The translations under genes were made by a program, and so were the position numbers. A stretch of 64,000 nt of DNA from positions 372,001-436,000 of the forward strand of contig WHUZ01000021.1 of assembly GCA_015179045.1 (NCBI GenBank), read 5' to 3'. This DNA comes from Kalaharituber pfeilii (lineage: Eukaryota > Ascomycota > Pezizomycetes > Pezizales > Pezizaceae). The notes under the pieces are model-generated. The model ran no database searches, was not told the DNA's origin, and saw nothing but the letters and a program-made list of their open reading frames with translations. Shown here in pieces: positions 23,544 through 62,400 of this stretch (the stretch's first letter is position 1; each line of letters begins with the position of its first letter).

Positions 23544-25769
23544 ATGTCTGATCCAATATCTGTAGCTGCGTCAATTGCTGGCCTCATTGCAATCTCAGCA
23601 AAAATTGTAAATTTGCTGAAGGGCCTCTATAGTTGCAGGACTCGGGTCAGGCAGATACCAGAATCCATCAACCGCCTAGTAGCAGAAATGCAAGATATGA
23701 ATGCGATCTTCTGCCAGGTCCAGCTGTTTATTATTGGGACAACTAAGATTTCAAACAAAGGTGGCTTGAAAATGTTGTCTATTCAGCACCTTCTTGCAAC
23801 TTTGAGTGGATGTGTTTTGGTCACTTCTAACCTGGACAAGTATCTGAGTGAAGTTTTGGGAATTAGTCATCCCAGAAGCACGCAACCTCTAGCAAACAAA
23901 GTAAGCCTTTTATTTGAGGAGATGAAATGGGCACTATGGAAGGAAGAAGAGGTTGCAGTCTTTATTGAGGACCTACAGCGGCACAAGCTGAGTTTGAATT
24001 TGATGTTGGGAATTATCCAATGGTAGGTTGATAAGCCTGCTTTCTTTCAGAAGATGCAGAAACTAATCTCTTTATATAGCAATTCTATGGCAGATGCTGC
24101 TGAGAGCCTTGGGAAATTGCATGAAGCAGTTAGTCACATATTAGAATCCAACCATGCGATTTCAATTCAGTTGCGCACAATCATCAGCCGTGATGATCCT
24201 TCAATAAGCGATGAAATAGAGTCTACGACAGTTGATATGCATCCCCAGGCTGCATGCATGGTACCTGCAGAAGGTTATTCCAAGATACCATTCTCCACAA
24301 CTAAATATGGGCAGGTCTCCGACAACATTGATGACGCGGCATCGGTCAGTTCTACAGCAACATCTCGTAGCACATTGTCCTTACGGTCCATGCAATCTAC
24401 ACTACCATCGTTCATAGACGAATTGCAACATTCAAGGCCTTACAAGCGAATGCGAAAGTTGAGCACCAGTGATGATTCCTGCTCCACATTCTCTCGAAGT
24501 AGTTCTACAAGAGGCTGTAGCTGGTCAATGCTTTCAAACATGAGCTTTGGTGATCTCTCGATTTCAGAGATCTCAGTGATTGAGCTACCTATTTGGTTAT
24601 CGGATGTCTGGGACTCACAGCCCTACGAAGGTGAAACGCTACTTCATTCAGCTGCCGGTCACTACAGATCATGCCAACCATTGATACCGAGGCAGTATTC
24701 TTTGGAGGATCGAGATGAGGATGCCATTCGAACTCTGCTCGCTCTAGAAACAGATGTAGAGGACTTGACACCACTGTTTGCAGCGGCGTACCAAGGGTCT
24801 TACAAGATGGTGGAACTGCTGCTGGCAGACAGCAAGGTTGACGTCAATATGGCTAACAAAAATGGCTCGACACCCCTGCTTGCAGCAGCTTACCGAGGTT
24901 CCTACAAGGTGGTGGACCTGCTGCTGGCAGACGGCAGGGTTGATGTCAATGTGGCTAACAAAAATGGCTGGACACCGTTGAGTATCACAGCTAACAAAGG
25001 GCATGACAAGATGGTGGAGCTGCTGCTGGCAGACAGCCGGGTTGATGTCAATGTTACTAACAAAAATGGCTTGACACCACTGAATTGCGCAGCTTTAAAA
25101 GGATATGACAAGGTGGTGGAGCTGCTGCTGACAGACCGTAGAGTTGATGTCAATATGGCTAACGAAAATGGCTGGACACCGCTGAATTGCGCAGCTGACA
25201 ATGGGCATGACAAGGTGGTGGAGCTGCTGCTGGTAGACAGCAGGGTTGATGTGAATATGGCCAACGGAAATGGCTGGACACCACTGAATAGTGCAGCTTT
25301 AAAAGGGCATGACAAGGTGGTGGGGCTGCTGCTGGCAGACCGCAGGGTTAATGTCAATATGGCTAACGGAAATGGCTGGACAGCGCTGAATAGTACGGCT
25401 TTAAAAGGACATGACAAGGTGGTGAGGCTGCTGCTGGCAGACAGTAGGGTTGATGTCAATATGGCTAACGGAAATGGCTGGACGCCACTGCATAGTGCAG
25501 CTTTAAAAGGGCATGACAAGGTGGTGGAGCTGCTGTTGGCAGATGGCAGGGTTCATGTCAATATGGCTACCATATATAGCTGGATGCCACCGACTACTGC
25601 AGCTCACGAGGGGCATCACAAAGTGGTAGAGCTGCTTCTCGCGCATGACAAAATCAACAAAGCAAAGGCCATTGCTGCGTCTAAGACTGCCACTGCCATG
25701 ACCTTGGCCGACAGGTACCTACAACGCAGAAGTACGACTAGGTTGCGCTCAAAAGTTGAAAAGAAATAA
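23544..25769 (+). CDS. PF17111-like N-terminus + ankyrin array protein, copy U1
   Basis: Exons 23544-24022 and 24080-25769 are separated by a 57-nt intron after IIQW and give 722 residues. The first ~45 residues (MSDPISVAASIAGLIAISAK onward) match the fungal N-terminal domain known from PigL and STAND/NLR-like proteins (PF17111). An all-helical-looking stretch follows to ~residue 180. A Ser/Asp-rich linker (~residues 200-370) contains TRGCSWSMLSNMSFGDLSIS. About nine 34-residue ankyrin repeats occupy ~415-695, with the consensus GWTPLNSAALKGHDKVVELL then LADSRVDVNMANKN. A basic tail follows. No NACHT or NB-ARC motif (P-loop) is present. Compared with U2/U3 it lacks the GPMHRAIHDG segment before the array. 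By family analogy it may work in non-self recognition or as a scaffold; the partner is unknown. The protein is probably cytosolic. Confidence 0.85.
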
Positions 25770-33802: not shown

Positions 33803-35854
33803 ATGTCTGATCCACTTTCTATAGCTGCATCAATTGCTGGTCTCGTTGCGATCTCAGCAAAAATTGTAAGTTTGCTGAAGGACCTCTATGATTGTGGGGC
33901 TCGAGTCAAGCAGGCACCAGAATCCATCAACCGCCTAGTAGCAGAAATGCAAGATATGAATGCCATTTTCTGCCAGGTCCAGCTCTTTATTATCGGGACA
34001 ACTAAAATTTCAAACAAAAGTGGCTTGAGAATGTTGTCTATCCAGCACCTTCTTGCAACCTTGAGTGGATGTGTTTTGGTCACTTCTAATCTAGACAAGT
34101 ATCTGGATGAAGTTGTGGGAATCAGTGATCCCAGAAGCACGCAACCTCTAGCAAACAAAGTAAGCCTTTTATTTGAACAGATTAAATGGGCACTGTGGAA
34201 GGAAGAAGAAGTTGCAGTCTTTATTGAGGACCTACAGCGCCACAAGCTGAGCTTGAACTTAATGTTGGGAATTATCCAATGGTAAGGGTAGAAGCCTATT
34301 TTTTTCACAATATGCAGAAAACTAATCTCTTTAAATAGCAATACTACAGCAGAGGCTGCTGAAAGCCTTGGGAAGTTGCACGAAGCAGTTAGTCAAATAT
34401 TAGAATCGAACCATGCGATTTCAATTCAGTTGCGCACAATTCTCAGCCGTTATGATCCTTCAATAAGCGACGAAAAGGAGGTTACGATAGTTGATATGCA
34501 ACCCCAGGTTTCAAGCGCGGAAAGCGATTTCAAGATACCATTATCCACAGCTCAGGATGACTTGGTCTCCGATAACGATGATGACTCTTCATCAGTCAGA
34601 ACTACAGCAACATCTCTTAGCACATTATCCTTGCGATCCATGCGATCCATGCGATGTGTGCTACCATAGTTCATAGACGAGCTGAAACACTCAAGACCTT
34701 ACAAGCGATTGCAAAAGTTGGGTATGGGCGACGATTCTCACTCCACATTCTCTAGCAATAGCTCCACAAGAGGTTGTAGCTGGTCGATGCTATCAAACAT
34801 GAGCTTGGGCGATCTCTCGATTTCGGAAATCTCAGTGCTTGAACTACCTATTTGCTTATCTGATCTCTGGAACTCACAGCCCTACCAAGTTGAAATGCTG
34901 CTTCATTCAGCTGCTGATCTTCGCAGATCACACCGACCATTGATACTGAGGTGGTTTTCTTTGGGGCCTATGCATCGTGCCATCCATGATGGGGATGAGA
35001 ATGCCATTCGAACTTTACTTGCTTCAGGGAGAGATTTAGAGGAGAGAGATTCAAATGGCAGAACACCACTGTATGTAACAGCTATAACTGGCCAGGACAG
35101 GATGGTAGCGCTGCTGCTGGCAGACAGCAGGGTTGATGTCAATACGGCTAGCAAAAATGGCTGGACACCACTGAATTGCGCAGCAGGTAAAGGGCACGAC
35201 AAGGTGGTGGAGCTGCTGCTGGCAGACAGCAGGGTTGATGTCAATGTGGCTAGCAAAGATGGCTGGACACCACTGAATTGCGCAGCAGATGCAGGGCATG
35301 ACAAGGTGGTGGAGCTGCTGCTGGCAGACAGCAGAGTTGATGTCAATATGGCTGATATAATGGGCATAACACCACTGAATTGCGCAGCTTCTTTCGGGCA
35401 TGTTAAGGTGGTGGAGCTGCTGCTGGCAGACAGCAGGGTTGATGTCAATGTAGCTACCAAAGATGGCTGGACACCACTGAATTGCGCAGCAGGTAAAGGG
35501 CACGACAAGGTGGTGGAGCTGCTGCTGGCAGACAGCAGGGTTGATGTCAATGTGGCTAGCAAAGATGGCTGGACACCACTGAATTACGCAGCAGATGCAG
35601 GGCATGACAAGGTGGTGGAGCTGCTGCTGGCAGACAGCAGAGTTGATGTCAATATGGCTAGCAGAGCTGGCTGGACACCATTGACTTCCGCAACTAACGG
35701 AGGGCATGACAAGGTGGTGGAGCTGCTTCTCGCACATGACAAAATTGACATAACAAAGGCCATTGCTGCTTCCAAGACTGCCCCGTACCCAGTCCCTAGG
35801 TATTTACAACGCAGAAGTCTGGCTAAGATACGCTCAAAAGTTGAAAAGAAATAA
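33803..35854 (+). pseudogene. PF17111-like + ankyrin gene, copy U2, nonsense-interrupted
   Basis: Exons 33803-34281 and 34339-35854, with the same 57-nt intron position as the sisters. The frame is intact except for TAG at 34667-34669, where U3 has TCG in CTACCATCGTTCATAGACG. Full-length translation therefore stops after ~269 residues, leaving the N-terminal domain and part of the linker. The downstream frame (from Met at 34709) still encodes about eight ankyrin units. Repeats 2-3 and 5-6 of the array differ by a single base over ~200 bp, so a three-repeat (306-bp) block was duplicated recently. The change is not C-to-T, so it is not a RIP-type mutation. A short N-terminal product plus a separate ankyrin product is possible but unproven. 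Confidence 0.78.
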
Positions 35855-37173: not shown

Positions 37174-37870
37174 GTTTTGAATGCAAGGTGCACGCGCTAA
37201 TAAATAAGGTGGCTTCGAGAAGGCTGCTGGGGAAGTTCAGCGACTACATGGTTTCGATGCATACTGGTACTATTGCAGAGTTTTTACTTTAAGTCGTTGA
37301 GTTTAAGAAAGGGGAAGGTTGAATGTGTTGGTGAACTGCGCTATAGTTGTACGGAGTGTATAAGTATGCCGGTAATCTGCATGCATATGCACCGCAATGG
37401 GAGTACTCAGACCTCACCTCAATGCTATGCACGAGACCATCCTCAATGCGGAATTTCCAGATTTCTCCAGATTGGAATTTTGGGCAAAATTCCGGTATTG
37501 TTAAGTGCGTTTGGTATATCATAGCAAGAGGGTTTTGTATGGGAATGGAATGTAGAAGCCTGAGAGCATCTGGTATAGCAAGGTTTCCGGTACAGCGAGG
37601 TCCGGATTTTTAGACATTTCACTCTCCTGTAGAAACAAAAGCTTCCTTTCGTCAACGCAGATTATCCGCATTGAAAATAACAAATGTGAGAATTGACACT
37701 AAATAGCTGATACCATCCCGTGGATACCACATGACTCTACATTATGATAGTGATAACTCGAACTCAATTGTTAGCCCCAACACCATATACTCCTCTCAGG
37801 TATCTGAGTGGGGGTGCTCACATATGGAGATCGAGTTGCATGTAAAATCAGGATAGGAAAAAAGAAGAAA

Positions 37871-41166: not shown

Positions 41167-41672
41167 TACCGAGCGAGAACGAGAACGAGAACGAAAAGAA
41201 AAGCAAAAATAAATTATTTCTTTTTGTGCCCATGAGACCGGTATGATATGATATGCCAACGTCACGACCTGCGCGTGGCTTAGCTAGGTAGCAAGCCAAG
41301 TCTTCAGCTCCGGGTGAGTGTGTGGGGGGGCTCTATGATATGATCTAGCAAGCACCGCCACAGGAAATTCGTCGTCATGCAACGCGCGGACTTGCGATGT
41401 ATATATGGGAGTAAGTAGCACCTATTTCTCCTGCTCAAATTGATTCTTATTGGCATTCAAGCGTCTTCTCGGCATATATAACAGGTTTCGATTTACGATT
41501 ACTAGTTGTCGACTGTTTACGTACACCTATCCGTTTCTTGATTCGGGCTTCCCTGTTAACTTGCTCGATTTAACGTCCGCTGCGTCGTCTCCCCGTACTC
41601 ACACAAAGAGCTTCAGCGCCCGTCGACACGAGACGAGACGATACGAGACGATACGATACCAGGTAGCGTAAG

Positions 41673-42341
41673 ATGATTGCGCCGCACCTGATTAAAGTCG
41701 CGAGGAGCCAAGAGGAGCAGGAGCAGGAGCAGGAGCAGCAGCAGGAGCAGCAGCAGCAGCATCCCGAGACGTCCCCTCCGCAGCCGCAGCCCCACCCCCC
41801 GCACCAAGACCCACAGCATGAACAATCGCAACCCCACGACACCGCGACCGCCGACCATCCGCCCCCCGCATACACTCCCATCGCAGAGCCGTTTCCGCCC
41901 TCCACAATCACGCAGCCGCTGCCACCACCATCTCCAGCACTCGCACCACTACCACCATCCCCACAGCCCTCCCGAACGGAAGCTGCGGGGCCAGCGCCTG
42001 TCCAAACGCCCCTCCCGGACGGTGGAGAAGAGTGGCAGACGCCGCCGGAATATACCCCAGCGCCTGGGTACCAGCAGCAGGATGACGTCCCGGAGAAGCG
42101 GGGTGGTGAAGGGTATACGGGATCGTATGACCACTCTGCGGCGGCGGTGGATGAAAAGAAGCCTGGAGTGATGGTGACGGATGACGATGAGGCTGGGCGT
42201 GAAGCGGAGGACACAAAAGGAAAGGGAAAGGGAAAGGGGGTCGAGACGCAGCCAGAAAGCACGAAAGTTAGGTGTTTAAGATTTCGTATGGGGGTCGGGG
42301 TTTGTGCATGGCTCAGTTCGAGAATATCATTGCTACTGTAG
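41673..42341 (+). pseudogene. Truncated glycosyltransferase exon 1 fused to repeat sequence (U2/U3 junction)
   Basis: Nearly identical to the first ~195 codons of the gene at 59431 (MIAPHLIKVARSQEEQEQEQ..., both PPxY motifs, WQTPPEY). The 5' flank back to ~41.2 kb is shared too. At ~42264, within codons for PESTK, it switches to the sequence that also starts U2. The frame then runs 20-odd foreign codons (CLRFRMGVGVCAWL...) to a stop at 42341. The Gln/Glu repeat near the start differs in length from the full copy. If transcribed, it would give a ~220-residue disordered peptide without the catalytic domain. Confidence 0.85.
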
Positions 42342-44063
42342 CTACTACAGTGCTGTGGGATATTTTCAACAAGAGAGAACTTCTATTTTGCCAGTGTAGG
42401 TTGATGGAGCAGAACCTCCGTCCTACCCCTTCTCACATATATACAGGATACAACCCCCCCCCCTCCCCTCTCCCCCCTCTTCTTTCAGCAACAGCCCAAT
42501 TCCGGCATCAACCCCCCCCCCCCCTCCCGTGCTCATCGCAACTCCCCCTCCAGGCTCTGGAAAACACAAGTTACGCTTACAGTCTGATTTTAGCCTTTTC
42601 TCTCGGTCCCATTGCAGGGGTGGCGATTCGACGTCGTCATCCTAAATTAGCTGTCTCATCTATAAGCTCAAGATGAAGTAGATGTCAGTACTACACCCCC
42701 CATCCCATGAACGCAGAACACCTGCGGAAAAAAAGGCTTTCCTGAGTCAACAAGCATTGGTATAACAAGTGTCCTCATTGTGAATGAGCTCGATGTAGAT
42801 TCGGAGTCTAATTCAGGGTTCGAGGAGTCCATGATGGTAACTGTGTCAGGAATTGAAGAGTTGTCAGGACTAGGGAAGGCTTCGGCAAATTTTGGAAAGA
42901 GAGGGTTCCCTGGAGGTTGGAAATGGAGATTTTTGGAAATGTATAAGTGTGTGTACTGGAATCTTAAAGAGAATTGAATAGAAAGATATTATTTACAACT
43001 TTCTCTTCATATTGGGATGCTCTGATTTATCTACATGGATGGAATTCCAACTTCCGTTTCATCTTCAAAAAGTTCTCTTTTCATACTCTACCGGACTTGC
43101 ACTGACTTTAAGATCTTGGCACCAAGAAGCATTTGCAGTTGACAGCTCGCTAGGGTTCGACAGTAGGAAACATGGACTCATGGCCAGTAGGGGAGGGGAG
43201 GGGGAGGGGAGTCATGGAAACGTAGCTAAAATATAAGCATTCATTCGCTCCATTTATTCCTGAGAAGTTCTGTTTTGTTTTGTTTTAGTGTCTGCTTATA
43301 TCTGAGCTCCATTGTTTTCTTTGCTTTTTGCTACACCCTCTACTTTCAATCACTTCGAATCTTTGTTTTCATGATTTTGGGTGTGTCTTGACTCAAGAAT
43401 TCACTTTGCTGAGTATCACTGGTCCCTACTTTTCAAGTTTTTAATAGAGGGGTGTGCAGGTAATAATGGTATAGGACCCTTAGGTACTAAGTGCTAACGT
43501 ATAGTTGACACTGAACGAGAAGCTCGAGAAGGTGAGGTTTGAGCTGAGGATCACTTGAATTTATTTGATGACTCAGGTGATAGATGCTTAAAGCATCTTC
43601 GAGGGGTTTGAGGAGCTTCTACAGAATTCGGGAGTTGATGGAGAATAGTGTAGATGTCTGAGAATCTGGAGTGGGGGTGCTGAATTGTGAGACCTTGTGG
43701 AGGTACCAGTTTCCGAGAACATTAAGGTACTGTCCCGTTAAATACGATTGAAGGAGCTCGACCCCTTATTACTGTTGCTTTCGGTCTAAATCACACATCC
43801 AATTGCCAAAAAAAAAAAAGTACACTTTTCCTCTATTTCTACCTATGATTCATTTTCATATTCATTCGTCTGTCATATGAGGAAACTTTTTATTTGCCCT
43901 CCGCATTTTTCCTTCCATTCATCCATTTTGGATCCAGTAATCGTTCCATATCTCTCTCCTCTGTACTCCATGGTAAGTACGTTTTTATGCTACGAGAAGA
44001 TGTGATATACTATTGCGTTGAGAAGACATTTTAATGATATGCAGCGATGGTAATGGAATTTCC

Positions 44064-44532: not shown

Positions 44533-44933
44533 GAAAAAAACAGCTCTACCAAGGACCCCTCCAGCGACAGGAAAAAACAGCTTCATCAAGGACCGTCTCC
44601 GGCGAAAAAAAAAAAAACAGCAGCAGCAAGGACCCCTCCGGCTACAGGAAAAAACAGCTTCATCAAGGACCCCTCCAGTGACAGGAAAAAACAGCTTCAT
44701 CAAGGACCGTCTCCGGTGAAAAACAAACAAAAAAACAGCAGCAGCAAGGACCCCTCCGGCGACAGGAAAAAACAGCTTCATCAAGGACCCCAAGCGACAG
44801 GAAAAAAACAGCTTTATCAAGGACCCCTCTAGCGACAGGAAAAATCAGCTTCATCAAGGACCCCTCCGGCGACAGGGCAAAAAAAAATACAGCGTGATGA
44901 ATGACCCCCTCCGGCGACAGGAAAAACAGCTTT
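44533..44933 (+). repeat. ~38-bp minisatellite
   Basis: About ten imperfect units containing CAGCTTCATCAAGGACCC and CTCCGGCGACAGGAAAAAA. Units vary in A-run length and in CAGCAGCAG against CAGCTTCAT. The array yields repetitive frames on both strands (44390-44832 plus, 44494-45029 minus), which I treat as non-genic. Confidence 0.82.
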
Positions 44934-47728: not shown

Positions 47729-48306
47729 TATTATCTGAACAAGGAACCAAAAGCGGGGTGGTTTGTTCTACTGCCGTTAGTAATGAGCGAGGTGACAACA
47801 AGCGGCGGTAGAAGAGTACAGAAATTCTTGAGTGCCCCAGTTGGATGAAAAGGGCTGTCTAGAGCAGCTTTCTAAAGATTTGGCTGAGATGCTCTGGTTC
47901 CATATGATTAATCCCGAATAGTACCGGGGCAGCCTGTTTTTAATTTTTGTTCTTAATTTTTGTTCTTTTCAACAAAAGTACAGCATAGGTATTCATGCTA
48001 TTCGGCAACCCAGCTGGCTGCTAACTAATGTCGTGGCTACTGTTGCAACGGAGCCTTGAGATAGCGTAAAGGTTGCACTATCCCCATGTACAACCAGCCA
48101 CGACAAACATAATGATTTGGCCCTTTTGTCACTAGACCCATTTCTGGTAAATCTACATTGTGAAGTTATCATACTCGTAACCCCCTTGAATTATTGCACG
48201 CTGCATGCACACTGCATACGGTGCAGTAGCCAGTCCGAATGTAAATTAACTTTTGTGTGGCCGCCGTTGGCAGCAATTACACCTCTAACTCACTCAGGCA
48301 TACTTT

Positions 48307-49319
48307 CTACAAGCTTGAAAACCTCCCCCGGCTTTTTCTTCTGCCATTCCTCCTGAATCTGTTGACATACCCCCTCTGCAGCTGCAAGCGGGGTAACGTG
48401 ACAAAAAAAACAAAAAAACCCTCAGCTGTAGTAGCTCTATCTTGATATTTGCTTATCCTTGTCTCGATCACTCTCCAGATATCCTTGAGATCTAGTGAAC
48501 TTGCTACCCATGGCAGTGATTCCATTCCAAATTCCTTTCGTACTGCTTAAGTTGCCTTTGCAGTATGAGCAGAAGCACCATTCTCCATGACTGTCAACCA
48601 TTTTCCTCGACAACTTTACTCAAACCAGTATGGACGTAAGACAGGACGAAGGTCATATGTACAATATGACTGTGATGTGATATTCCCCCAATCATTCTTC
48701 TGCGAAACAACTTCACTTGTAGAACCATCAGCAGCTCCGCAGATAGCACCCCAGATCATAACCGAAAGTTTGTTGTTAGGAATTCTTCATTTAATTGTCG
48801 AGTAACCCATACTCATCCAGCACTTCCATTCAATCAAATATATGATTCATCTGTCTAAATGAGTTCTCTCCACATCTCAATTGTCCAGTCAAGATGTGCC
48901 ATAGCCCATGCCAATCTCCTAGCCTTTTTCTCAGCATCTAGAAATGGTTTACGACATGCAACTTTTCAAAATAGCCCTCCATTTCAAATGCCTCCTTTAA
49001 TACTTGTTCACATGCTTGAATTGCAGCTCTCTGCAACTTCTGAGAATGTCAGTCTGCGACAGACAGAATCGCGAGTAGCAACAGCTACTAGTTGATGTCG
49101 TTGTGGAGTAGTAATTTTTCGATGACGTCCTCGCCACTTAAATTTGCTTAGAGTACGAGGCTGTCTGCATATTCGAGCAACTGTGGTTCGGTGGAATCCC
49201 ATCTCTTCGGCTATTTTCTCATAACTCCATCCAACTCGATAGCGGAGAGTATGCATTTCAATGCGCTCTTCATGAGTTGGCTCACGCGTCTTCAGTCCAG
49301 ATCTTGCCGGCGTCTCCAT
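48307..49319 (-). pseudogene. Tc1/mariner transposase pseudogene (U3)
   Basis: The N-terminal HTH frame (49319-49008) matches U2 (METPARSGLKTREPTHEERI onward) and then breaks. The second catalytic motif reads ENGASAH (Asp lost, as in U2). The third motif is eroded to WVASSLDLKDIW by a small deletion. Non-functional. Confidence 0.8.
48380..48418 (+). mobile_element. LINE family I 3' stub, 39 bp (U3 only)
   Basis: AGCTGCAAGCGGGGTAACGT, then GAC and an A-rich tail, interrupt CCCCTCTGC|TGTAGT, which is continuous in U2 (~32110). Short flanking repeats CCCTCTGC / CCCTCAGC (one mismatch) fit a target duplication. Confidence 0.75.
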
Positions 49320-49995
49320 GCTGTCGGTATATTAATTAGACATCCTTACTGCATGAATCTCTACAATACAACGAGCGAATCTCTGAATTCTGAATTTGTA
49401 GCGTACTCGAGTGCTGAATTGGACACATATCGTATTTACATTTGAACTGGCTTCCTGCACGGTATGCAGCTTGCAATAATTCATGGGGGTTACGAGTACG
49501 AGCATGATATCATTATACCGGCTCCGCCAATGATACTGTCCTATAATGTTCAAAATATATAGTTGTCAACAGCACAGCTGCGCTTCGCAATCTTAATTAA
49601 TTAATACTACCAATTGAAATAATCAACACCTTTCAAGACAGCCAAAAAAACTGAGACAAGAGGCTGCTGGCCGCTCCATTACGGTAGTCAAAGAGAATCA
49701 GGCGAGACAACAGAGGGCATTTGAGTTGGTGACGAATAGTAGGATTACTAGCTGACCGGTGTCAAAAAGTTTTATATTAGTTCGACTATTAGTCGTATGG
49801 GCCGTCCTCACAGGGTTGAGATTCACAACAGAACAAACACTACTTAGGAACTGCTTCATAACAATATTATCACAACAGGTTAACCTTCTCATTTCCAGTG
49901 TTGGAGTTTCATAAACTAATTCGCTGTAGGGCTAGGCGCACTCCCTCTACCAGCATTCGCTTGACTATCTACATCCAACTAGTATATCAACAAGA

Positions 49996-52224
49996 ATGTG
50001 TGATCCACTATCTATAGCTGCATCAATTGCTGGCCTCGTTGCAACCTCAGCAAAAATTGTAAGTTTGCTGAAGGACCTCTATGATCGAGTCAAGCAGGCA
50101 CCAGAATCCATGAACCGCCTCATCGAAGAAATGCAGGATATGAATGCCATCTTCTGCCAGGTCCAGCTCTTTATTATCGGGACAACTAAAATTTCAAACA
50201 AAAGTGGCTTGAGAATGTTGTCTATCCAGCACCTTCTTGCAACCTTGAGTGGATGTGTTTTGGTCACTTCTAATCTAGACAAGTATGTGAGTGAAGTTGT
50301 GGGAATCAGTGATCCCAGAAGCACGCAACCTCTGGCAAACAAAGTAAGCCTTTTATTTGAACAGATTAAATGGGCACTGTGGAAGGAAGAAGAAGTTGCA
50401 GTCTTTATTGAGGACCTGCAGCGCCACAAGCTGAGCTTGAACTTAATGTTGGGAATTATCCAATGGTAAGTGTAGAAGCCTATTTTTTTCGGAATACGCA
50501 GAAAACTAATCTCTTTAAATAGCAATACCACAGCCGAGGCTGCTGAAAGCCTTGGGAAGTTGCACGAAGCAGTCCATGCGATTTCAATTCAGTTGCGCAC
50601 AATTATCAGCCGTTATGATCCTTCAATAAGCGATGAAAGGGAGGTTACGATAGTTGATATGCAACCCCAGGTTGCAAGCGCCGAAAGCGATTTCAAGATA
50701 CCATTATCCACAGCTCAGGATGACTTGGTCTCCGATAACGATGATGACTCTTCATCAGTCAGAACTACAGCAACATCTCTTAGCTCATTATCCTTGCGAT
50801 CCATGCGATCCATGCGATGTGTGCTACCATCGTTCATAGACGAGCTGAAACACTCAAGACCTTACAAGCGATTGCAAAAGTTGGGTATGGGCGACGATTC
50901 TCACTCCACATTCTCTAGCAATAGCTCCACAAGAGGTTGTAGCTGGTCGATGCTATCAAACATGAGCTTGGGCGATCTCTCGATTTCGGAAATCTCAGTG
51001 CTTGAGCTACCTATTTGCTTATCTGATCTCTGGAACTCACAGCCCTACCAAGTTGAAATGCTGCTTCATTTAGCTGCTGATCATCGTAGATCACACCGAC
51101 CATTGATACTGAGGTGGTTTTCTTTAGGGCCCATGCATCGAGCCATCCATGATGGAGATGAGAATGCCATTCGAACTTTACTTGCTTCAGGAACAGATTT
51201 AGAGGAGAGAGATTCAAATGGCAGAACACCACTGCATGTAACAGCTGGAAATGGGCAGGACAGGATGGTAGCGCTGCTGCTGGCAAACGGTAGAGTTGAT
51301 GTTAATATGGCTGACAAAGATGGCCGGACACCACTGAATTGCGCAGCTTCCAATGGGCATGACAAGGTGGTGGAGCTGCTGCTAGCAGATGGCAGAGTGG
51401 ATATCAATGTGATTAATAAAAATGGCTGGACAGCACTGAATAGCGCAGCTTTAAAAGGGCATGATAAGGTGGTGAAGCTGCTGCTGGCAGACAGCAGGGT
51501 TGATGTCAATGTGGCTAACAAAAACGGCTGGACACCACTGAATAGCGTCGCAGATAAAGGGCATGACAAGGTGGTGGAGCTGCTGCTGGCAGACAGCAAG
51601 GTTGATGTCAATGTGGCTAACAAAAACGGCTGGACACCACTGAATAGCGCAGCTTTAAACGGACATAACAAGGTGGTGGAGCTGCTGCTGGCAGACAGCA
51701 GGGTTGATGTTAATAATATGGCTAACGAAGGTGGCTTGACACCGCTGAATAGTGCAGCTATAAGTGGACACAACAAGGTGGTGGAGCTGCTGCTGGCAGA
51801 CGGCAGGGCTGATGTCAATATGGCTGACAAAGATGGCTGGACACCGCTGATTTCTGCAGCTGTCACCGGACTAGACAAGGTGGTGGAGCTGCTGCTGGCA
51901 GACAGCAGGGTTGATGTCAATATGGCTAGCAAACGTGGCTGGACACCACTGAATAGCGCAGCGAACTATGGGCGTGATAAGGTGGTGGAGCTGCTGCTGG
52001 CAGACAGCAGGGTTGATGTCAATACGGCTGCCAAAAGTGGCTGGACACCATTGACTTCCGCAACTGACAGCGGGCATGACAAGGTGGTAGAGCTGCTTCT
52101 CGCACATGACAAAATCGACATAACAAAGGCCATTGCTGCTTCCAAGACTACCCCGAACTTGCTCGATAGGTATTTACAACGCAGAAGTCTGGCTAAGATA
52201 CGCTCAAAAGTTGAAAAGAAATAA
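49996..52224 (+). CDS. PF17111-like N-terminus + ankyrin array protein, copy U3
   Basis: Exons 49996-50465 and 50523-52224 (57-nt intron) give 723 residues with no internal stop. The N-terminus is MCDPLSIAASIAGLVATSAK; relative to U2 it has lost three codons near DLYDRVKQ and eleven codons in the HEAV-HAIS stretch. The Ser-rich linker is as in U1/U2. The array starts with MHRAIHDGDENAIRTLLASG, followed by nine 34-residue repeats (GRTPLHVTAGNGQDRMVALL ... GWTPLTSATDSGHDKVVELL). One repeat has an extra Asn (VDVNNMAN). Repeats are 102 nt each, and neighbours are very similar in DNA. The tail RRSLAKIRSKVEKK is shared by all copies. There is no nucleotide-binding domain. This is the best candidate for a functional copy. 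By analogy it may have a recognition or scaffold role in the cytosol; this is unproven. Confidence 0.87.
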
Positions 52225-52373
52225 GAGGAAGTAGACGTTGCTCATTCTCTGCCCTTGGTTTCATCTCTTTTCCGATCCATGTAACCTCAATTCTAATTTA
52301 TTTCCATATTTCTATTGGCAAGGAAACTGGGAGAGTTTTATATGTGCTTCGCGTCCAATCGAGATAGCAGCGT

Positions 52374-52877
52374 TATGAGCGGGCGCGAGGCTGCTCAGTC
52401 AACTATGCGCGGTTCCTCTACTAGGTGGTCCTCGAGTCACTGTCCGAAGGAGGCGAATCGCTATCTTGAGTAGTAGAAAGTCTCGATATGTGTATATTCG
52501 GCAATGGCAGTAGCGAGTAGAATGTGTAAGTACAATAAAAGAGTGCGGGAATGTGGTAAGTAGGAAAAGGAAGTAGTATAACGGCGCGGCGATATCTACA
52601 TGACTGTAGAAGACAGAGTAATCGTGCGTATGTACAAATGGATGATGTGTGTATTGTATATCTGTGTATGATACATGTGCAAAAGGAACAGAACCTCTTT
52701 ATACCGCAGACCGTTCGGTCATTTCTAATCAACCCGGCTTACCCTCATCCTCACGTGCCCGTGCTACTTCACTATTGCTCTTGAACTTCCACGTGACCTA
52801 CGGCGTTATCTGAGCCCAGCGCCAGCGCGGTTAGTAAATAAGTAGCAACTAGCAAGTAGGCGCGCGCCGCCTACCAC
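52374..52877. mobile_element. Probable solo LTR, ~503 bp (U3 only)
   Basis: U1 and U2 are continuous through GATAGCAGCGTT; U3 carries ~503 bp between copies of CAGCGT (52368-52373 and 52877-52882). One end reads CCTACCACA and the other TATGAGCGGGCG, so in minus orientation it would begin TGTGGTAGGCGG. The exact TG..CA borders are ambiguous by a few bases. It contains CTTTATA and AATAAAAG signals. A 103-codon minus frame inside is probably spurious. Confidence 0.65.
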
Positions 52878-53019
52878 AGCGTGTTTGATCTTTAACCGTG
52901 GATTTATGTTGTTTCTTTTTTTCGTGTGTGTATCAATGGTTTGTCTCTCAAATGCACAAGTTCTGATGTATGTCTGTAGCATTCTAGTTGGACAAATTCT
53001 GCTTTTTTCATTTACGTGA

Positions 53020-53074
53020 TTTTTTTTTTTTTTTTTTTTTTTTTCTCACTATCATTTATCGCATGCCGCCTTAA
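53020..53074 (-). mobile_element. LINE family II 3' stub (U3), shared with U2
   Basis: Poly-T then ATCATTTATCGCATGCCGCC between ATTTACGTGA repeats (53010-53019, 53075-53084). Same site as U2 36141-36189; the T-run differs in length. Confidence 0.87.
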
Positions 53075-53696
53075 ATTTACGTGAGTGATTGAAGGGTCAC
53101 AGATTCTAAGTTGCACATTTCCTGTAGCCTTCAAGCTGGTGGTAGCATCTGATGCTGTACTTTTATATCTTCTGGATATTTGTTATTCTTTGGTATACAC
53201 AATTCAACTGTTCGAAGGAACATAGCTTGCACACTTATTGTGCTATGTCTGCAGGATGTACTCTGATCAGAAGAACAACATGGCTAGCAAGCACCCGAGC
53301 CCCTCCGTCGATGTCTTCAGGTGAGCCGATGGGACATGTAGTTGACTTGTTTCCTTGATCTGATAGATGAGGGGTTGTTCACACGGTGCCAGTACCAAGC
53401 ACCCGTAGTCCTTCCCATGATACGCCACTTTCCAGTACCTGCCTTCACGCCCACTGAGTGCCCATCCTCAATCACGAGCCTTTGTTCTCTGTCACGCGTC
53501 CGACTTCGCAGGATGAGTAGCCGTCATCCGCAGGCTATGCGAATTTAGGCCGTAGGCCGTGGCTTGCAATTGCTGCCTCTGTTTGTTCTACACAGCGAGT
53601 ATGCTGAAATGGATCAATGGACATAAGAGCCGGTAAGAAGCATTGTAGTAGAGGATGCAAACCTTCGAGGTACTGTAGTACCTGTGCTGGAGTTCT

Positions 53697-53719
53697 TTTT
53701 TTTTTTTTTTTTTTTTTTT
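53697..53719 (-). mobile_element. Pure poly-T insertion with 11-bp target duplication (U3 only)
   Basis: 23 T's with nothing else, flanked by GCTGGAGTTCT at 53686-53696 and 53720-53730. It is best explained as a LINE reverse-transcription event that copied only the poly-A tail. Confidence 0.78.
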
Positions 53720-53854
53720 GCTGGAGTTCTGAATGCAAGGTGCACGCGCTAATAAATAAGGCGGCTTTGAGAACGCTGCGGGGGAAGTGTGCTGACTATA
53801 TGGTTTCAATGCATACTGGTACTATTTGCAGTAGTTTTTACTTTAAGTAGTTGA

Positions 53855-53907
53855 TTTTTTTTTTTTATATATCATTTATCGCTTACCGCCCTGTGGGCTA
53901 TGGCGAT
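53855..53907 (-). mobile_element. LINE family II 3' stub (U3 only)
   Basis: T-run, ATATATCATTTATCGCTTAC, then CGCCCTGTGGGCTATGGCGA, between TTTAAGTAGTTGA repeats (53842-53854, 53908-53920). U1 (28378) and U2 (37288) have the empty site. Confidence 0.87.
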
Positions 53908-53978
53908 TTTAAGTAGTTGAGTTTACGAAAGGGGAGGGTTGAATGTGTTGCTGAACTATGCCATAGTACATACGGAGT

Positions 53979-54182
53979 TCTGTTGTGCATTGACGTTATC
54001 TCTTTCTCCCTACATTACCATCGGAGGTTGTGGGTTCCATGCCGGTTTTGTTGTTTCTCCCTCCAGTACTATTGCAGATTGTGGGTTCATAGGATGCGGA
54101 CTTTTATTATCTACATTTCCGTTTTTCATTATTTACATATGGAACTAACCTCCGTAGCCCATCGGGCGGCATGCGAGTGATG

Positions 54183-54216
<34 letters not shown>
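53979..54216 (+). mobile_element. LINE family II 3' fragment, 238 bp (U3 only)
   Basis: Ends GGGCGGCATGCGAGTGATGA, then TATTTT and ~25 A's, flanked by ACGGAGT (53972-53978, 54217-54223). Its 5' part (duplicated TTTCTCCCT...TGCGGGTTC-like blocks) is the longest family II 3' UTR in the window and could serve as its reference. U2 is continuous here (~37350). Confidence 0.82.
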
Positions 54217-54218
<2 letters not shown>

Positions 54219-54803
54219 GGAGTGCATATGCAGGAAATCTGCATGCATATGCACCGCAATTGGAGTACTCAGACCTCACCTCAATACTATGCACGAGACC
54301 ATTCTCAATACGGAATTTCCAGATTTCTCCGGATTGGCGAATTCCAGATTATAGACATTTCACTCTCCTGTAGAAACAAAAGCTTCCTTTCGTCAATGCA
54401 GATTATCCGCATTGAACAGACAAATGTGAGAATTGACACGAAATAGCTGATACCATCCCGTGGATACCAACACATGACTCTACATTATGATAGTGATAGC
54501 ACGAACTCAATTGTGATTCCCAACACCATATATTCCTCTCAGGTATATGAGTGGGGGTACTCACACATGGAGACTGAGTTGCACTTGAAGATCAGGATAG
54601 GGAAAAAAGAAGGAAAAAGTAGAAGTTCGGGGTCTGGGTATCTCTTATTTTTATTTTTATTTTTATTTATTTATTTATTTATTTTTTTTTGGCCCCCAAC
54701 ACGCAGTATGTACTCGGGAAAAACTGCATACAATGTGACAGGGGATAGTTGCTAGGATAGAGTTCACCTGTTGGTTATGTGATACTGGTTACCCTACAGC
54801 ACG

Positions 54804-57800
54804 AGGGGGCCGAGGAGAGGGTGCGGGTGGACTGGGAGAAGGTGGAGAAGGAAGTGAAAGGTTGGGAGGGGGAGTGGGGAGAGGAGGAGAAGAGGGAGTG
54901 GCTGGAGAGAGTAGGGGACGGAAGTGCATATGAGCAGCTGAAGAGGTGGAAGGGGACGGTGGAGAGAAGGGTGAGGGTAGGGGGAAGAAGCAAGAGGTGG
55001 TGGACGGAGGAGATTGAGGAGATGAGAAAGGAGGTCAATAGAATGGCACGGGGAGGAGTAGGGGCCAGGGCAAGATTGACGGACGGGGAAAGGGTAAGGG
55101 GGTGGAAGGCAGCAGTGAAAAGGATGAAGTGGAAGATCCGGGAGGAGAAGAAGAAGTGCTGGAGGGAGTTCGTGGAAGAGGAAGGGTATAGCGACCCGTG
55201 GAGGGTGGTGAGGGTGGCGAAGGACCCTTTCGGAGGAAAGGAGAAGATGGGAAGGTTGAAAGATGAGGAGGGGAGGGAGTTGGAGGGGGATGGAGAGAAG
55301 GTGAGGACGCTGGTGGAGAGGAATTTTGCGTGGAGGGAAGAGGGGGAGGCAGAGGCGGGGGAGGAGGGGGAGGGGAAGCGGAGGGGGAGGGGGACGAGAG
55401 GGAGAGGGAGAGAGTGGAAGGAGAAGTGAGGGCTGCGTTGCAGGGCACCAAGAACAATTCGGCACCGGGACCTGACGGAATCGGATACCGATTGATCAAA
55501 GCTGCCCTGAAGACTCCCATCGGAGATGAGTTAGTAAGGGAGATCGCCGACAACTGGATCCGGAACAGGACCCCGGCGGAGTGGAGGGAGATGAGGGTCG
55601 TCATGATACCGAAGCCAGGCAAGGACATCAAGACGGCGAAAGCGTGGAGGCCAATCAACCTGATCAATTGTATCGGGAAGATCGGGGAGAAAGTCATGGC
55701 CAACAGGCTGCAGAAAGAAGACCGACTCTTCCACAGGCTCCAGCTGGGAGCACGCAAGGGGAGGAATGCGATCCAGGCGATGGCGAGGGCGGTAACAAAG
55801 GTGCAGAGGTGCCTGCACAGGGGGGGGAGAGCAGCGTGGGTGACGGCAGATGTTAAAGGAGGCTTTAACATCGTGAGGAAGGAGGTGGTCCTGGGAAGGA
55901 TTGAGGAGAGGGGGAGCGAGGGGTGAGAAAGAAGCGGAGGTGGCTGGAGGAGTTTATGGAGGCAGGGAGTTCGGAGTGTGGTGGGACGGCGAGGAGAAAG
56001 GGAGGGGCAGGTCGAACGTGGGGGTTCCGCAAGGGTCACCACTGTCGCCGGTCATCTTCCTCATCTTCATGGCACCCACCATTGAGAAGATGGAGAGAAG
56101 GCTGAGGGGGGTGGCGATGGGGGCGGAGGTAGAAGTGCCATCGTACGTCGACGACCTGGCAGCAACAATCCTGGACTGGCACGGGTACTGGGATATGGGG
56201 CGGCTCAGGGAGAAAGTGAAGGTGGCAATGGCGGAGGTGGCGGAAGAAGATCAGATCCCGCTGGAGGAGTCGAAGTGGGAGATGATAACTTTCGGAGTGG
56301 GGAAAAGGTGGAAGAAGGAGGGGGAGATGCTGAAGTGGCTGGGAGTCATTTTCGACGAGAAGCTGACCTTCAGTGCGCATTGGCGAAATAGGTTGAGTAG
56401 GGCGAGGAGGCTGGCAGGGGCACTCTCAGGACTGGGAAACCGGGACTGGGGGATGTCACCACGGAGCTGGCGGCAGGCGTACACAGGGATGGTGAGGGCG
56501 GTGGCGATGTGGGGGAGTGAGATCGGGTGGAGGGGCCAGAAGGAGTGGAGGAAGGAGATGGAGCGATTACAGCTGCAAGTTTTGAAGAGAGCAGCTGGAG
56601 GGGGGAGAGGTGCCGGGGTGGAAGGGGTGAATGCGGTTTGCGGAGTGGAAGACGTGGAGACGGTCCTGGATGGCGCGCAAGCGAGAGCGATCGTCCGGGA
56701 GGTGGAGGCGCCGTCAGAGCTGGCGGAGCTTTGCACGGGCGACTTCGGAGGGAGTGAGGAGAGAGAGGAGGAGGCGAGAAACTGGAGAGACTGGGGGCTG
56801 CAGTGGGCGGCGGTCGAGAATGATGGGTATGAAGCAGTGCTGGACCGCTGGCAAGGTCAGTGGGCGAGGTTCTCGGAGGAGGGGGAGGAGATCTCGTGGG
56901 GAGGGGGGTGTGAGAAGGTGGAGGTGGAGACCGCGGTGAGGCTGGGAAGAAAGAAGGGGGGAAGGGAGGAGTGGGAGACCTCGGTTGAGGAAGCCGGAAG
57001 AGGGAGGGCGGTCCTGTTCTCGGATGGTAGCAAGGTCGAGGACAGCAAGGTGGGGGCGGGGGTGTGGGGGAGATCAGCGGTGGTGGCGGAGGTAGTAGGG
57101 AGAACGGCGACGGTTTTTGACGGGGAGGTGAGGGGGGTGAGAAGGGCGCTGGAGAGTGTACCGGAGGAGGTACCGGTCCTGGTTTGCTTAGATTCTGAAG
57201 CTGCTGTCATGGCGATTCAGAAGGCAGGCAAGGAGGGAAAGGGAAAGACCGAGGATGTGAGAAGGGTGGTGAACGCGGTAGCGAGGAGGAAGAAGAAGGG
57301 AGGAGATGCGAAATTGATGTGGGTCAAAGGCTCACATCGGAATCGCAGGAAATGAGAAGGCGGATGAGTGGGCGAAGAAGGGGACGGTGATGCAGGGGAA
57401 GGAGGTGGCCACCGGAAGTGGGGTGCGCCAGAGGGTGAAGGCGTGGAGGAAGGAGAAGAGAGAAGTGGAGGGCTTTGGAGGAGGAAAGGTCATGGAGTGG
57501 AATAGGATGGCAGTATCCAATTTCACTGCCTTGCGCCTGGAGAGAGGGAGGTGTGCAGTGTGGTTGAAGAGGATAGGGGCGGCTGAGTCGGATAAGTGCA
57601 GGTGCGGGGAGGTGCAAACCGGGGAGCATCTCGCTTTCCGATGCAGGAACCAGAAGAACCGTCCAGAAGGCTTTGAGAGGTGGGGCGACATGGAAAAGAA
57701 TTGGAAGAGAAAAGCGGAGAATGGGGAGGAGTATGACGTTTTGGAGAATTTCTTCTCTGGGGTCAAGTTCTAGAAGGTAGGAGAATGCGGGGTCAAGTTC

Positions 57801-58675: not shown

Positions 58676-59430
58676 GTTTTTTACGTACATATTGCTTTTT
58701 TTGTTTTGGCGAAACGTCGGTGCTTGTGTAAGATTTCGTATGGTTGTCGGGGTTTGCATGGTGCTTAATTCGAGGAAATATTACTGCAGTACTCTGGAAG
58801 ACAAGTTAAGGTTAGAGTTCTGATTTCAGCCCTGGTCCCGTTGTCAGGGGGGTGGTGCACCATTCGACATCGTCGTCATCACTTTTTGTGAACAACTTTA
58901 TACCCGAGCGAGAACGAGAACGATAAAGTGCGATCTGCACGTGGCTTAGCTAGGTAGCTAGGTAACGCTGCCAAGTTTTCAGCTCCGGGTGAGTGTGGGG
59001 GGGTAGTCTCGTAACCAGGGGGTTCTATGATATGATCTATCAATTGCTAGCAAGCACCGCCACAGGAAATTCGTCGTCATGGGTGCTAGTGGGGGGCGTG
59101 CGGAGATTGAAACGCGCGGACTCGCGATGTATATATGAGAGTAGGTAGTACCTATTTCTCCCGCTGAAATTGATTCTTATTGGCATTCAAGCGTCTTCTC
59201 GGCATATATAACAGGTTTCGATTTACAGTTACTACTTGTAGTTATCGACTGTTTTACGTACACCCCCACCCGGCTATACGTTTCTTGATTCGGGATTCCC
59301 TGTTAACTTGCCTGCAACGCTCGATTTTAACGTCCGCTGCGTCGTCGCCCCCGCACTCACACGCAGAGCTTCAGCGCCCGCCGATACGAGACGAGACGAT
59401 ACGGTACGATACGATACCAGGTAGCGTAAG

Positions 59431-62400
59431 ATGATTGCGCCGCACCTGATCAAAGTCGCGAGGAGCCAAGAGGAGCAGGAGCAGGAGCAGGAGCAGCAGC
59501 AGCAGCAGCATCCCGAGACGTCCCCTCCGCAGCCGCAGCCCCACCCCCCGCACCAAGACCCACAGCATGAACAGTCGCAACCCCACGACACCGCGACCGC
59601 CGACCATCCGCCCCCCGCATACACTCCCATCGCAGAGCCGTTTCCGCCCTCCGCATTCACGCAGCCGCTACCACCACCATCTCCAGCACTCGCACCGCTA
59701 CCACCATCCCCACAGCCCTCCCGAACGGAAGCTGCGGGGCCAGCGCCTGTCCAAACGCCCCTCCCGGACGGTGGAGAAGAGTGGCAGACGCCGCCGGAAT
59801 ATACCGCAGCGCCTGGGTACCAGCAGCAGGATGACATCCCGGAGAAGCGGGGCGGTGAAGGGTATGCGGGATCGTATGACCACTCTGCGGCGGCGGTGGA
59901 TGAAAAGAAGCCTAGAGTGACAGCGACTGATGAAAAGAAGCCTGGAGTGACGGTGGCGGATGACGATGAGGCTGGGCGTGAAGCAGAGGACACAAAAGGA
60001 AAGGGAAAGGGAAAGGGGGTCGAGACGCCGCCGGAAAGCACGACAAGCGTGCCCCCAGCGACATCGGCATCGCATGCTGCGGTTGCCTCATCAAGTCCCC
60101 CAAATCCTGGTCTCGCGAGAACACACAGTGAGGCTTATGGGGATCTGGGTGCGATTAGGCCTGATGATGCGCCTTCGCAGGGCGCATTGGCGAGTGAGTA
60201 TCTTCCATTTTATTCATTCCGATGCGAAATTTTGCATTTTACTCACGAAAACTTTTGTTGCAGACGACGGCCGCGTTAGAATCACCATCTCCTCCACCGG
60301 CGTGCTCGGAATCCAGGGCCGCGAGAAGCGCCCCGGCGAAATCACCCGACCGCAGACAAAAAGAAGGAAAAAAAAGAAGCCAGTGCGCTCTCGTACCTCT
60401 CCTCCCTCTCCTCCCTCATCAACTCCGAGATGTACTTCCGCAGACGCAAGAAGCTGCAAGCAACCGGCGAGGTTGAAGCTCCTGTCGCCGACCCCTCCGC
60501 GCTCATCCCAGACGTGGTGACGGGGGTACCGCCTCCCCCGCCCCCGGTCACTCCGCGGTTGAATATCGTGATGCAGGTTATCGGGTCCAGGGGGGACGTG
60601 CAGCCATTTTTGTCGCTGGCGATAGTCCTGGCGAGGCCACCGTACAATCACCGCGTGAGGGTAGCGACGCATGCGTGTTTTGAGAAATTTGTGATTGAGG
60701 TTGCGAATAGGCATGGATTGGAGCCGGAGCAGGGGCAAGATACGAGGGGGTCGATTGAGTTTTTCCCGTTGGCAGGCGACCCCGCGGTGCTCATGTCGTT
60801 CATGGTGCGGAATCCGGGGCTCATTCCATCCACATCCGGGGACGAGATTCGCCAGCGCAGGAAGGACGTGTGGGATATTTTGGTCAGCACCTGGGCCTCA
60901 TGTTACCAGACCTCGCCTACTTCCCCGACCGCCCGCCCCTTCGTTGCGGATGTGGTCGTAGCGAACCCGCCTGGCTTCGGGCACCTGCATTGCGCCGAGC
61001 GGCTTGGGGCCCCGGTGCACATTATGTTCACCATGCCGTGGGCGCCGCCGACATCCGCGTTCCCGCACCCGCTCGCAAACACCCCGACGGACGTGAACGG
61101 GAAGACGAAAAAGGGCTATGTGATTGACAGCGCGACAATAAACTACCTAACCTACCCGCTTCTCGACATCCTGACATGGCAAGGGGTCGGGGACCTCGTG
61201 AACCGGTTCCGCACCGAGATCCTCCGGCTCGATCCGTTGAACAACGTGCATGCGCCCACGTTGCTTGGAAGATTAGCGACGGAGGGGGTGGTCCCACACA
61301 CGTACTGCTGGAGCCCAGCGCTGATTCCAAAACCAAAGGACTGGACTGGAGAATCGATTTCGGTGTCGGGGTTCTGGTTTCTGGATCTGAACACGGGGTT
61401 TACACCGGCGGCAGAGCTGATAGACTTTATTGAGAGGCGGAGTGAGAAGCCGTTGATATACATTGGATTTGGGTCGATTGTTGCGCCGGACCCAGGACGG
61501 CTGACGGGAGTGGTGCTTGAGGCGATAAAGTTGGCTAATGTGCGAGCGCTAGTGTCGAGAGGGTGGGGCACGATTTCTCCCCCGGAGGGATGGAGCGACG
61601 AGGATGTGTTTTTCCTGGGCAACACTCCGCACGACTGGCTGTTCCCGAGAGTAGCACTGGCAGTGCACCACGGTGGAGCAGGTACCACCGCCGCGGCGAT
61701 CAAAGCTGGGATTCCGAGCGTCATTGTACCGTTTTTTGGAGACCAGATGTTCTGGGGAGAGATGGTTGCGCGGAGGGGCGCGGGGGGCGTGTGCCATAAC
61801 TCGCAGCTAACGGCGGCGAAGCTCGCGGAGCTTATCACGACCGCGCTGGGCGAGGACGTACGTGCCTGCGCGCAAGAGCTGGGGCGAATCGTGGCGGGGG
61901 AGAAGGGCGAGGAAGTCGCAGCAGTGGGGCTCGTGCGGGGCGTGGCGACCAAGATCGGCGTGTGCGAAGTCGAGGAGAAGATGCACTTTATCCGCCGTGA
62001 GGAGCAGCCGAAACTTGCGGTATTCACGGTCGTCCCGCAGCACCCTGTGCCGCCCGGGGACGAGTTGAAGAAGCGGAGGCTGAAGACGAAGAATAAGAAG
62101 GGCATCAGGGTCTCCGCGAGGGTCGCATACGTGCTGCACGAGCTGGGGCTGATTGATCTGGATGACCCGAAGGCGGTGAGGTTGACGAGGTGGGTGGAGT
62201 ACCATGATCATATTCGGAGGTATACGGAGACGGACCCGGCGACGGGCGGGGCGAGCGCGCTGCTGGGGACGATTGTGGCGATGGGGATGGCGGGCGGAGT
62301 GGATTTTGATAGGAATTTGTTTTTTGGAGTGGGTGAGAGGAACGAGGAGGAGAAGGAGAGAAGTAGAGGCGCGGTGGTGGAGGCGGGGGAGAAGGAGGTT

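Follow-up and report, generated by a model that had tools for sequence, protein, structure and literature searches.

Gene C of the desert truffle Kalaharituber pfeilii encodes a helical-bundle head, a linker with a conserved motif and an ankyrin array, and lacks the nucleoside triphosphatase (NTPase) core of the nucleotide-binding oligomerization domain-like receptors (NLRs) that occur in the same genome. It lies in the 64,000-nucleotide stretch analysed here (the window, contig C124:372001-436000) of a 78-Mb assembly of 360 contigs, the one fungal genome searched as a whole. Judged from its sequence, gene C may about equally well be, or not be, a member of a lineage-expanded NTPase-less NLR-like recognition family. 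Its architecture, a conserved output module joined to a fast-changing binding surface, says receptor as far as sequence can tell, and from this we infer that the family functions in recognition. A preliminary description of the stretch had proposed a recognition system lacking the NTPase; the absence of the NTPase, variation on the ankyrin face and array turnover were recovered, near-identity of the repeats did not stand, and positive selection is only suggestive.

Gene structure, family and absence of an NTPase

The gene limits given before, 49996..52224, were exact at both the start codon (ATG, 49996) and the stop codon (ending at 52224), and a 57-nt intron that had been missed leaves an uninterrupted reading frame on the + strand with a spliced product of 723 aa. 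The features of gene C and its two paralogs in the window (genes A and B) are as follows.

49996..50465, + strand: gene C exon 1, which encodes a PF17111-related helical bundle (PigL_N / HeLo-like; by Pfam, profile-profile comparison and predicted structure)
50466..50522, + strand: 57-nt intron of gene C, GTAAGT...AAATAG; in genes A and B an intron occupies the equivalent site
50523..52224, + strand: gene C exon 2, which encodes the rest of the bundle, a linker rich in serine, the conserved motif, the ankyrin array and a basic tail, up to the stop codon
50833..51048, + strand: linker motif FIDELKHSRPYKR...WSMLSNMSLGDLSISEISVLELPICLSDLWNSQPY, with four invariant alignment columns and without a Pfam match in the proteins scanned
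51136..51234, + strand: first ankyrin half-repeat, class II type, ending GRTPL; left side of the apparent chimeric junction
51220..52140, + strand: array of nine 34/35-residue ankyrin units, NLR type (repeat detection and unit parsing)
52093..52221, + strand: end of the capping unit and tail LLLAHDKIDITKAIAASKTT...RSKVEKK, resembling the tail of the C294 NLR (by eye)
23544..25769, + strand: gene A, unbroken paralog of 722 aa, exons 23544-24022 and 24080-25769
33803..35854, + strand: gene B, a paralog interrupted in frame by a TAG at 34667-34669; its exons are 33803-34281 and 34339-35854

Pfam analysis of the spliced gene C protein (E<=10) led to a PF17111 match at residues 3-187 (E 3.5e-6) with 27.0 bits, which falls below the curated cut-off of 27.2, to C-terminal superstructure-forming repeats recognised by ankyrin models (Ank_2, E 2.2e-86), and to a weak GAT match (E 0.091). 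At the same threshold no NTPase domain was found in the spliced genes C and A, in agreement with the reported lack of a NACHT domain, and no RhoGEF, PH or GTPase domain was found in gene C. The layout of gene A is the same, although its PF17111 match reaches only 16.6 bits. The statement that all copies share this layout holds for A, but it covers only three window genes, of which B is broken by its TAG. The array period of 102 nt and units of 34/35 aa, nine of them recognisable in gene C, were recovered as described, and the Tandem Repeats Finder scores of the three window arrays (919-1077 against a threshold of 50) far exceed chance. The units are not near-identical, as had been stated: amino acid identity within a gene is 0.69 (A), 0.77 (B) and 0.68 (C), and these 68-77% lie below the 85% that marks high internal conservation in the accessible text of the fungal NLR survey of Dyrka et al. 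2014 (PMC4986451). Repeats closer to near-identity than those of the window genes occur in a 1589-aa ankyrin frame at C57:159327-162656 (part of it in L079), in which 16 units were read with a mean amino acid identity of 0.85 and a largely alternating two-unit pattern.

A genome search with gene C exon 1 gave at least 108 matches (best 150 of 167 candidates scored), and 85 family rows were retained once 8 rows that were further fragments of a copy already counted and 15 weak matches to canonical PF17111 loci had been set aside. Among these 85 rows, at least 65 exon-1 copies span at least 152 of 156 residues free of stops, with 21 on C318, 14 on C124, 8 on C82, 4 on C360 and the remainder scattered (contig counts from a tally that omits a stop-free C101 copy, and from which one stop-bearing C318 row has been subtracted). 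Exon 1 is under purifying selection, with a median pairwise dN/dS of 0.20 (595 pairs, 35 copies). At least one downstream ankyrin unit was present in 40 of the 43 family loci read, which comprise window genes A, B and C and in which L041 and L072 count as one gene. Two array classes can be told apart. Class I, with the 34-aa unit of gene C, occurs in the C124 cluster and in a small number of further copies; class II, with an alternating type of about 33 aa (IH.AI... / GRTPL.HAASMGHESICKLLLERGAS), occurs in those copies on C318, C82 and C360 that were read, and elsewhere. Protein searches returned P0001, P0002 and P0105 as the Kalaharituber proteins of the family; gene C is missing among them and is therefore probably unannotated in public gene models. 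Since just three proteins were returned against 65 stop-free full-length exon-1 copies, these models may miss most of the family, perhaps via repeat masking.

The NLRs of the same genome provided a control for the absence of the NTPase. A P-loop was found within 1500 bases downstream in 27 of the 30 best-scoring canonical PF17111 loci (81 PF17111 matches in the genome) and in none of the 43 family loci, and a scan that considered every match per frame and used a generalised Walker A pattern also gave 27/30 and 0/43. NPHP3_N (PF24883) follows within 3 kb on the same strand in at least 26 of 79 canonical PF17111 loci, and L024 combines PigL_N and NPHP3_N in a single open frame; the canonical PF17111 loci of this genome are NLRs. 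Among the matches listed, none of the 85 family rows had NPHP3_N within 6 kb downstream or NACHT or NB-ARC within 3 kb downstream, which extends the reported lack of an NTPase to these rows, and Pfam found no NTPase in exon 2 of three class II members. The underlying NTPase counts are lower bounds (NACHT, best 98 of 190 candidates scored; NB-ARC, 86 of 86; NPHP3_N, best 150 of 578 candidates scored, 178 matches, 150 of them used). The notion that PF17111 never stands on an NLR here (0/81 with downstream NACHT or NB-ARC) was overturned, as introns divide these genes and the NTPase they encode is of the NPHP3_N type. Two family copies have a more distant match on the same strand, an NB-ARC 3.8 kb downstream on C306 and a NACHT 8.3 kb downstream on C79. 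The C306 NB-ARC was rejected as a part of L067, a head with a stop, and taken as a separate gene because its 484-aa frame opens with its own different head. A SCO1/SenC match above cut-off (24.8 bits) at L070, a class II exon, lies inside or adjoining the ankyrin region and was taken as spurious.

Gene C shares with fungal NLRs of the signal transduction ATPases with numerous domains (STAND) type that have a HeLo-like head and ankyrin repeats a homologous head, turnover of the C-terminal ankyrin units and face variation, as far as the accessible text describes these (PMC4986451), and it differs in having the linker motif in place of NACHT, NB-ARC or NPHP3_N. The accessible parts of two reports on fungal gasdermins describe protease sensors in which an effector is joined directly to ANK, TPR or WD repeats, as in gene C, with only a small subset being NLRs; unlike gene C, these sensors have a protease as effector, and their genes are paired with gasdermin genes (PMC10197012, PMC12881547). 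A further relative by layout is PigL, whose N-terminal part gave PF17111 its name and which is described in the accessible text as an ankyrin repeat protein of the Monascus pigment cluster; disruption of the PigL gene reportedly leaves pigment production unchanged (PMC8241920). PigL, compared here by description only, thus combines head and ankyrin repeats as gene C does, but as a gene of a biosynthetic cluster (PMC8241920). The layout of head plus ankyrin repeats is therefore not new, and in view of PigL and the published protease-repeat fusions the rarity implied by the preliminary description is not supported. We know of no copy cluster or array turnover for PigL.

Turnover, origin and variation of the ankyrin arrays

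Turnover of the arrays could be followed among genes B, C and L033, whose parts before the array are 95.6-96.7% identical over about 1.2 kb. Unit 1 of C differs from that of L033 at 6 of 102 bases and the last units of B and C differ at 5, while the inner units of B cannot be matched one to one with units of C (9-25 differences). Units 1-4 of C align with units 1, 2, 7 and 8 of L033 (6, 12, 11 and 3 differences of 102), and L033 has four additional units between, two of them identical. Identical pairs are units 2 and 5 of B and units 4 and 6 of L033, unit numbers are 7 (B), 9 (C) and at least 8 (L033), and in L035 a block of three units is repeated (3, 2 and 13 differences). From this mismatch of inner units at 3-4% divergence before the array it follows that the array units turn over faster: units have been duplicated, lost or exchanged while the remaining gene diverged by 3-4%, as had been expected for genes of this kind. 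Nucleotide identity of units in 19 genes was 0.799 within genes (291 pairs) versus 0.774 between genes (5065 pairs), a small difference that was reached in 0 of 1000 shuffles.

The array is of the NLR kind, as the preliminary description had implied. A query of four gene C units detected the same unit type on contigs without the family head (best 150 of 2676 candidates), and in a gene on C294 such an array follows, on the same strand, an exon that encodes NPHP3_N (E 5.9e-17), so that the 34-aa unit type of gene C follows an NLR NTPase in this genome. The tails are similar as well, with LLLAHDKIDFTQVNAASETT...LRSKLE in the C294 gene and LLLAHDKIDITKAIAASKTT...IRSKVE in gene C (by eye). The C146 gene is judged to be of the same kind by its exons, which are near-identical to those of the C294 gene (by eye); its 71-aa fragment had no Pfam match. 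Four genes have NLR-type units (C294, C146, C57, C112), and the NTPase check, which covered C294 and C146, gave a Pfam match for C294 only. To the left of the array, gene C and three class II genes are identical at 31-37 of 60-64 positions up to GRTPL, and after GRTPL the match falls to 8/25. As it is class II-like up to GRTPL and NLR-like in array and tail beyond, gene C looks like a chimera of the family head, linker and first half-repeat with an NLR-type array and tail.

The exon-1 tree of 35 copies contains three changes of array class, and 0 of 200 bootstrap trees contain just one; in the approximately unbiased (AU) test, however, a single class I clade was not rejected (p-AU 0.057), and multiple array swaps are therefore not claimed. 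Class II occupies the deeper branches of the midpoint-rooted tree and Tirmania proteins are of class II style (by eye), from which we infer that the NLR-type array was probably acquired by the family.

Variation was analysed in 93 unique units of 19 genes, taken from 110 units of which 10 were dropped (4 units 35 aa long, 4 belonging to the other array class and 2 caps). Entropy was highest at ankyrin positions 13, 3, 10, 1, 14, 2, 32 and 9, in a numbering that we take to be the one used for designed ankyrin proteins. At six face positions named beforehand, presumably those randomised in designed ankyrin proteins, piN/piS (the ratio of nonsynonymous to synonymous diversity) was 1.02 (0.84-1.20), compared with 0.36 (0.32-0.41) at 26 other unit sites (bootstrap over genes), and excess variation at repeat surface sites was thereby confirmed. 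Variation had been ascribed to the 'NSAALKGHDK' loop and to 'ANKN'; it was recovered at 'ANKN' and in part of 'NSAALKGHDK'. In the fixed-effects codon analysis, for which our own script was used, dN exceeded dS at positions 1, 2 and 3 (p 0.007, 0.024 and 0.007, uncorrected, 34 tests). In 18 independent close unit pairs (11 within one gene), omega was 1.43 at positions 1-3 and 1.87 at positions 13-14, and 0.69 at positions 5, 10 and 32 and 0.51 at the remaining positions. The contrast between a conserved head and a variable face is firm, and positive selection on the face is suggestive.

Several results weigh against a recognition family with NLR-type arrays. Three of the 43 loci (L062, L067, L071) show no downstream ankyrin unit, and for L062 the annotated protein, P0002, is likewise without an ankyrin match in Pfam. 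A NACHT or NB-ARC match occurs within 10 kb of two of the 85 family copies, with about 4 expected by chance. The agreement in site-wise entropy between the family and the C294 and C146 genes (rho 0.77 over 34 sites) was computed without unrelated ankyrin proteins as control. The nearest unit of another gene was in the family for 93 of 93 family units and in the NLR-type set for 65 of 67 units of that set; the two unit pools are now separate, so any array transfer must be old, and recent unit exchange between NLRs and the family is ruled out. Omega at eight face positions was 1.28 (p 0.11 versus 1), for a set that was adjusted after the variability table had been inspected (position 32 replaces 33, and position 9 is omitted though more variable than 5). 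None of the 34 sites survives correction for multiple testing (3/34 with p<0.05 before it), so that the site-wise excess of dN over dS stands only uncorrected, and position 10 is significantly below 1 (p 0.012). No omega was significantly above 1 in the 18 close unit pairs, and class II units appear less variable (43 units). With omega at the face near 1 and no significant excess of replacements in close pairs, relaxed constraint may also fit the face variation, and recombination of units can inflate single-site p values.

Another possibility is a mostly decaying family that multiplied in a repeat-rich genome through duplications, segmental or linked to transposons, with array variation as drift. 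Genes B and C do lie on the two copies of a segment that spans at least 6 kb (about 31500-37755 versus 47771-54498), B is broken, and several exon-1 rows have stops or are fragmentary. Such an outcome is nevertheless very unlikely given the number of full-length stop-free exon-1 copies, their low dN/dS and the constraint on the array framework, where the codon model gave an omega of 0.34 at the 26 other positions (p 7e-26 versus 1).

Head, linker motif and possible output

Profile-profile comparison of the gene C head with ten canonical PF17111 heads, each taken from a P-loop-bearing locus of this genome, gave a probability of 95.1 (E 3e-8), with the family head profile 23% identical to the NLR heads over 128 columns. 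Two family members among the 81 PF17111 matches of the genome reached 24.0 and 24.3 bits, and P0001 and P0003 reached 21.2 and 16.5 bits, all below the 27.2 cut-off. Exon 1 was predicted to form five helices (mean predicted local distance difference test score, pLDDT, 78.2). No Foldseek match at E<=0.001 was obtained for the fold; structural matches to MLKL, plant coiled-coil (CC) domains and CBL are in the range expected for any helical bundle, and HET-S was outside the structural matches listed, from which nothing is concluded. In P0046, a HET domain (193-327) is accompanied by a weak PF17111 match (699-910, below cut-off), and this model may represent two neighbouring genes fused by annotation.

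After the PF17111-like bundle stands the linker motif S..Y...S...S..LGDLS.SEISV..LPI.LSDLW....Y (P0001:335-399), which no Pfam match covers in the proteins scanned. Four columns are invariant in 42 of 42 aligned proteins (S335, Y338, S355 and S366 of P0001), and all four are inside the motif. At L062 (C79:622977-628753, P0002) the motif region is tandemly repeated several times. The bundle with its S..Y...S...S...LP.....Y motif is present in the gene C family as in an N-terminal module of Cdc24-like, Cdc42-like and 'modin' proteins, the last of which we take to be Podospora MOD-A. Head and motif are also fused to CDC24 calponin, RhoGEF and PH_10 domains (protein searches, Pfam) and to Ras-superfamily GTPases (PF00071, e.g. 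in P0112 and P0113); P0164, found in the family protein search, is labelled Cdc42-like by its source. The examples compared, from Sordariomycetes, were P0014 and P0084, which are in the motif alignments, and P0112, which was assigned by search: they share the bundle and linker motif with gene C, and carry a RhoGEF/PH region, a GTPase or an unannotated region at the C-terminus in contrast to its ankyrin array. The N-terminus had been described as STAND-type, which is right in so far as it is homologous to NLR heads; it is not STAND-specific, because Cdc24-like, Cdc42-like and 'modin' proteins carry the same head. This shared motif would connect the head to Rho signalling.

If gene C is a recognition protein, the ankyrin array would bind a variable ligand, which could be non-self or a self protein in modified form. 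Lacking an NTPase, such a protein would need a simpler switch than that of NLRs, by ligand-driven clustering or by release of the head from the array, and ligand binding would thus cluster or unmask the head without an ATP-driven step. The head would then relay the signal at the membrane or via homotypic contact. In other fungi, according to the accessible text of PMC12881547, cell death involves HeLo and HeLo-like heads that act on membranes. As the same head occurs on Cdc24-like exchange factors, Cdc42-like GTPases and 'modin' proteins, its output may be Rho-type signalling rather than, or besides, HeLo-like membrane permeabilisation.

The same fusions to CDC24 calponin, RhoGEF, PH_10 and GTPase domains would also suit a family of Rho/Cdc42 adaptors, in which the head docks to the Cdc42 polarity machinery, the array is a scaffold that picks cargo, and diversity reflects many cargoes or relaxed constraint. 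We consider this unlikely, as 65 clustered copies with fast-changing arrays would be unexpected for a cargo adaptor and the array is related to NLR arrays. That relation, together with the homology of the heads and the sharing of unit type, variable sites and tail within one genome, could instead point to decoys or partners of NLRs (sensors, helpers or sponges), which bind ligand by the NLR-type array and act solely via homotypic contact with the HeLo-like heads of NLRs. A role of this kind is rather improbable, since genomic pairing with NLRs was not seen and the head profiles share only the 23% identity given above.

Genomic surroundings and implications

In the duplicated segment, gene C is followed by about 500 bases (52374-52877) that are missing behind gene B, and transposase-like open reading frames (ORFs) on the - strand (32756-33136 and 49008-49331; by eye, with a helix-turn-helix look) stand upstream of B and C. 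At 54761-57773 ORFs resemble a non-LTR (long terminal repeat) retrotransposon reverse transcriptase and RNase H (by eye). A low-complexity ORF (59274-60134) stands upstream of a sterol-glucosyltransferase-like gene (60280-63891; by eye), and a second copy of this ORF at 41570-42382 is without such a gene. The window also contains a 37-nt tandem repeat (44535-44932), the reverse-strand translation of which recurs at L011 (75-571), downstream of a PF17111 exon for which no P-loop was found; the repeat is perhaps a dispersed element that interrupts an NLR gene at L011.

Among the results listed in a literature search, mostly outside subscription journals, there was no paper on the gene C family or on any Kalaharituber genome. 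As far as the literature found goes, new are the clustered family of at least 65 copies with head and ankyrin layout in a desert truffle, the NLR-type arrays on a non-NLR chassis, and the linker motif that links the family to Cdc24-, Cdc42- and modin-type proteins. According to the accessible text of PMC4986451, fungal NLR surveys are seeded on NACHT or NB-ARC, and the gene C family has therefore remained uncounted. A more tentative extension of the recognition reading, which we hold possible though somewhat doubtful, is a second, NTPase-free recognition repertoire of desert truffles, in which NLR-type arrays moved, perhaps repeatedly, onto a Rho-pathway head and now diversify by unit exchange inside the gene C family. 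If this is true, sensor cassettes would be interchangeable between NTPase-driven and NTPase-free chassis, and if ligands are recognised, a part of the fungal recognition repertoire would have been overlooked. The question opened is whether an NLR-type array can signal through a head without a nucleotide switch, and with NLR and NTPase-less genes with related arrays, this genome holds a ready experiment.

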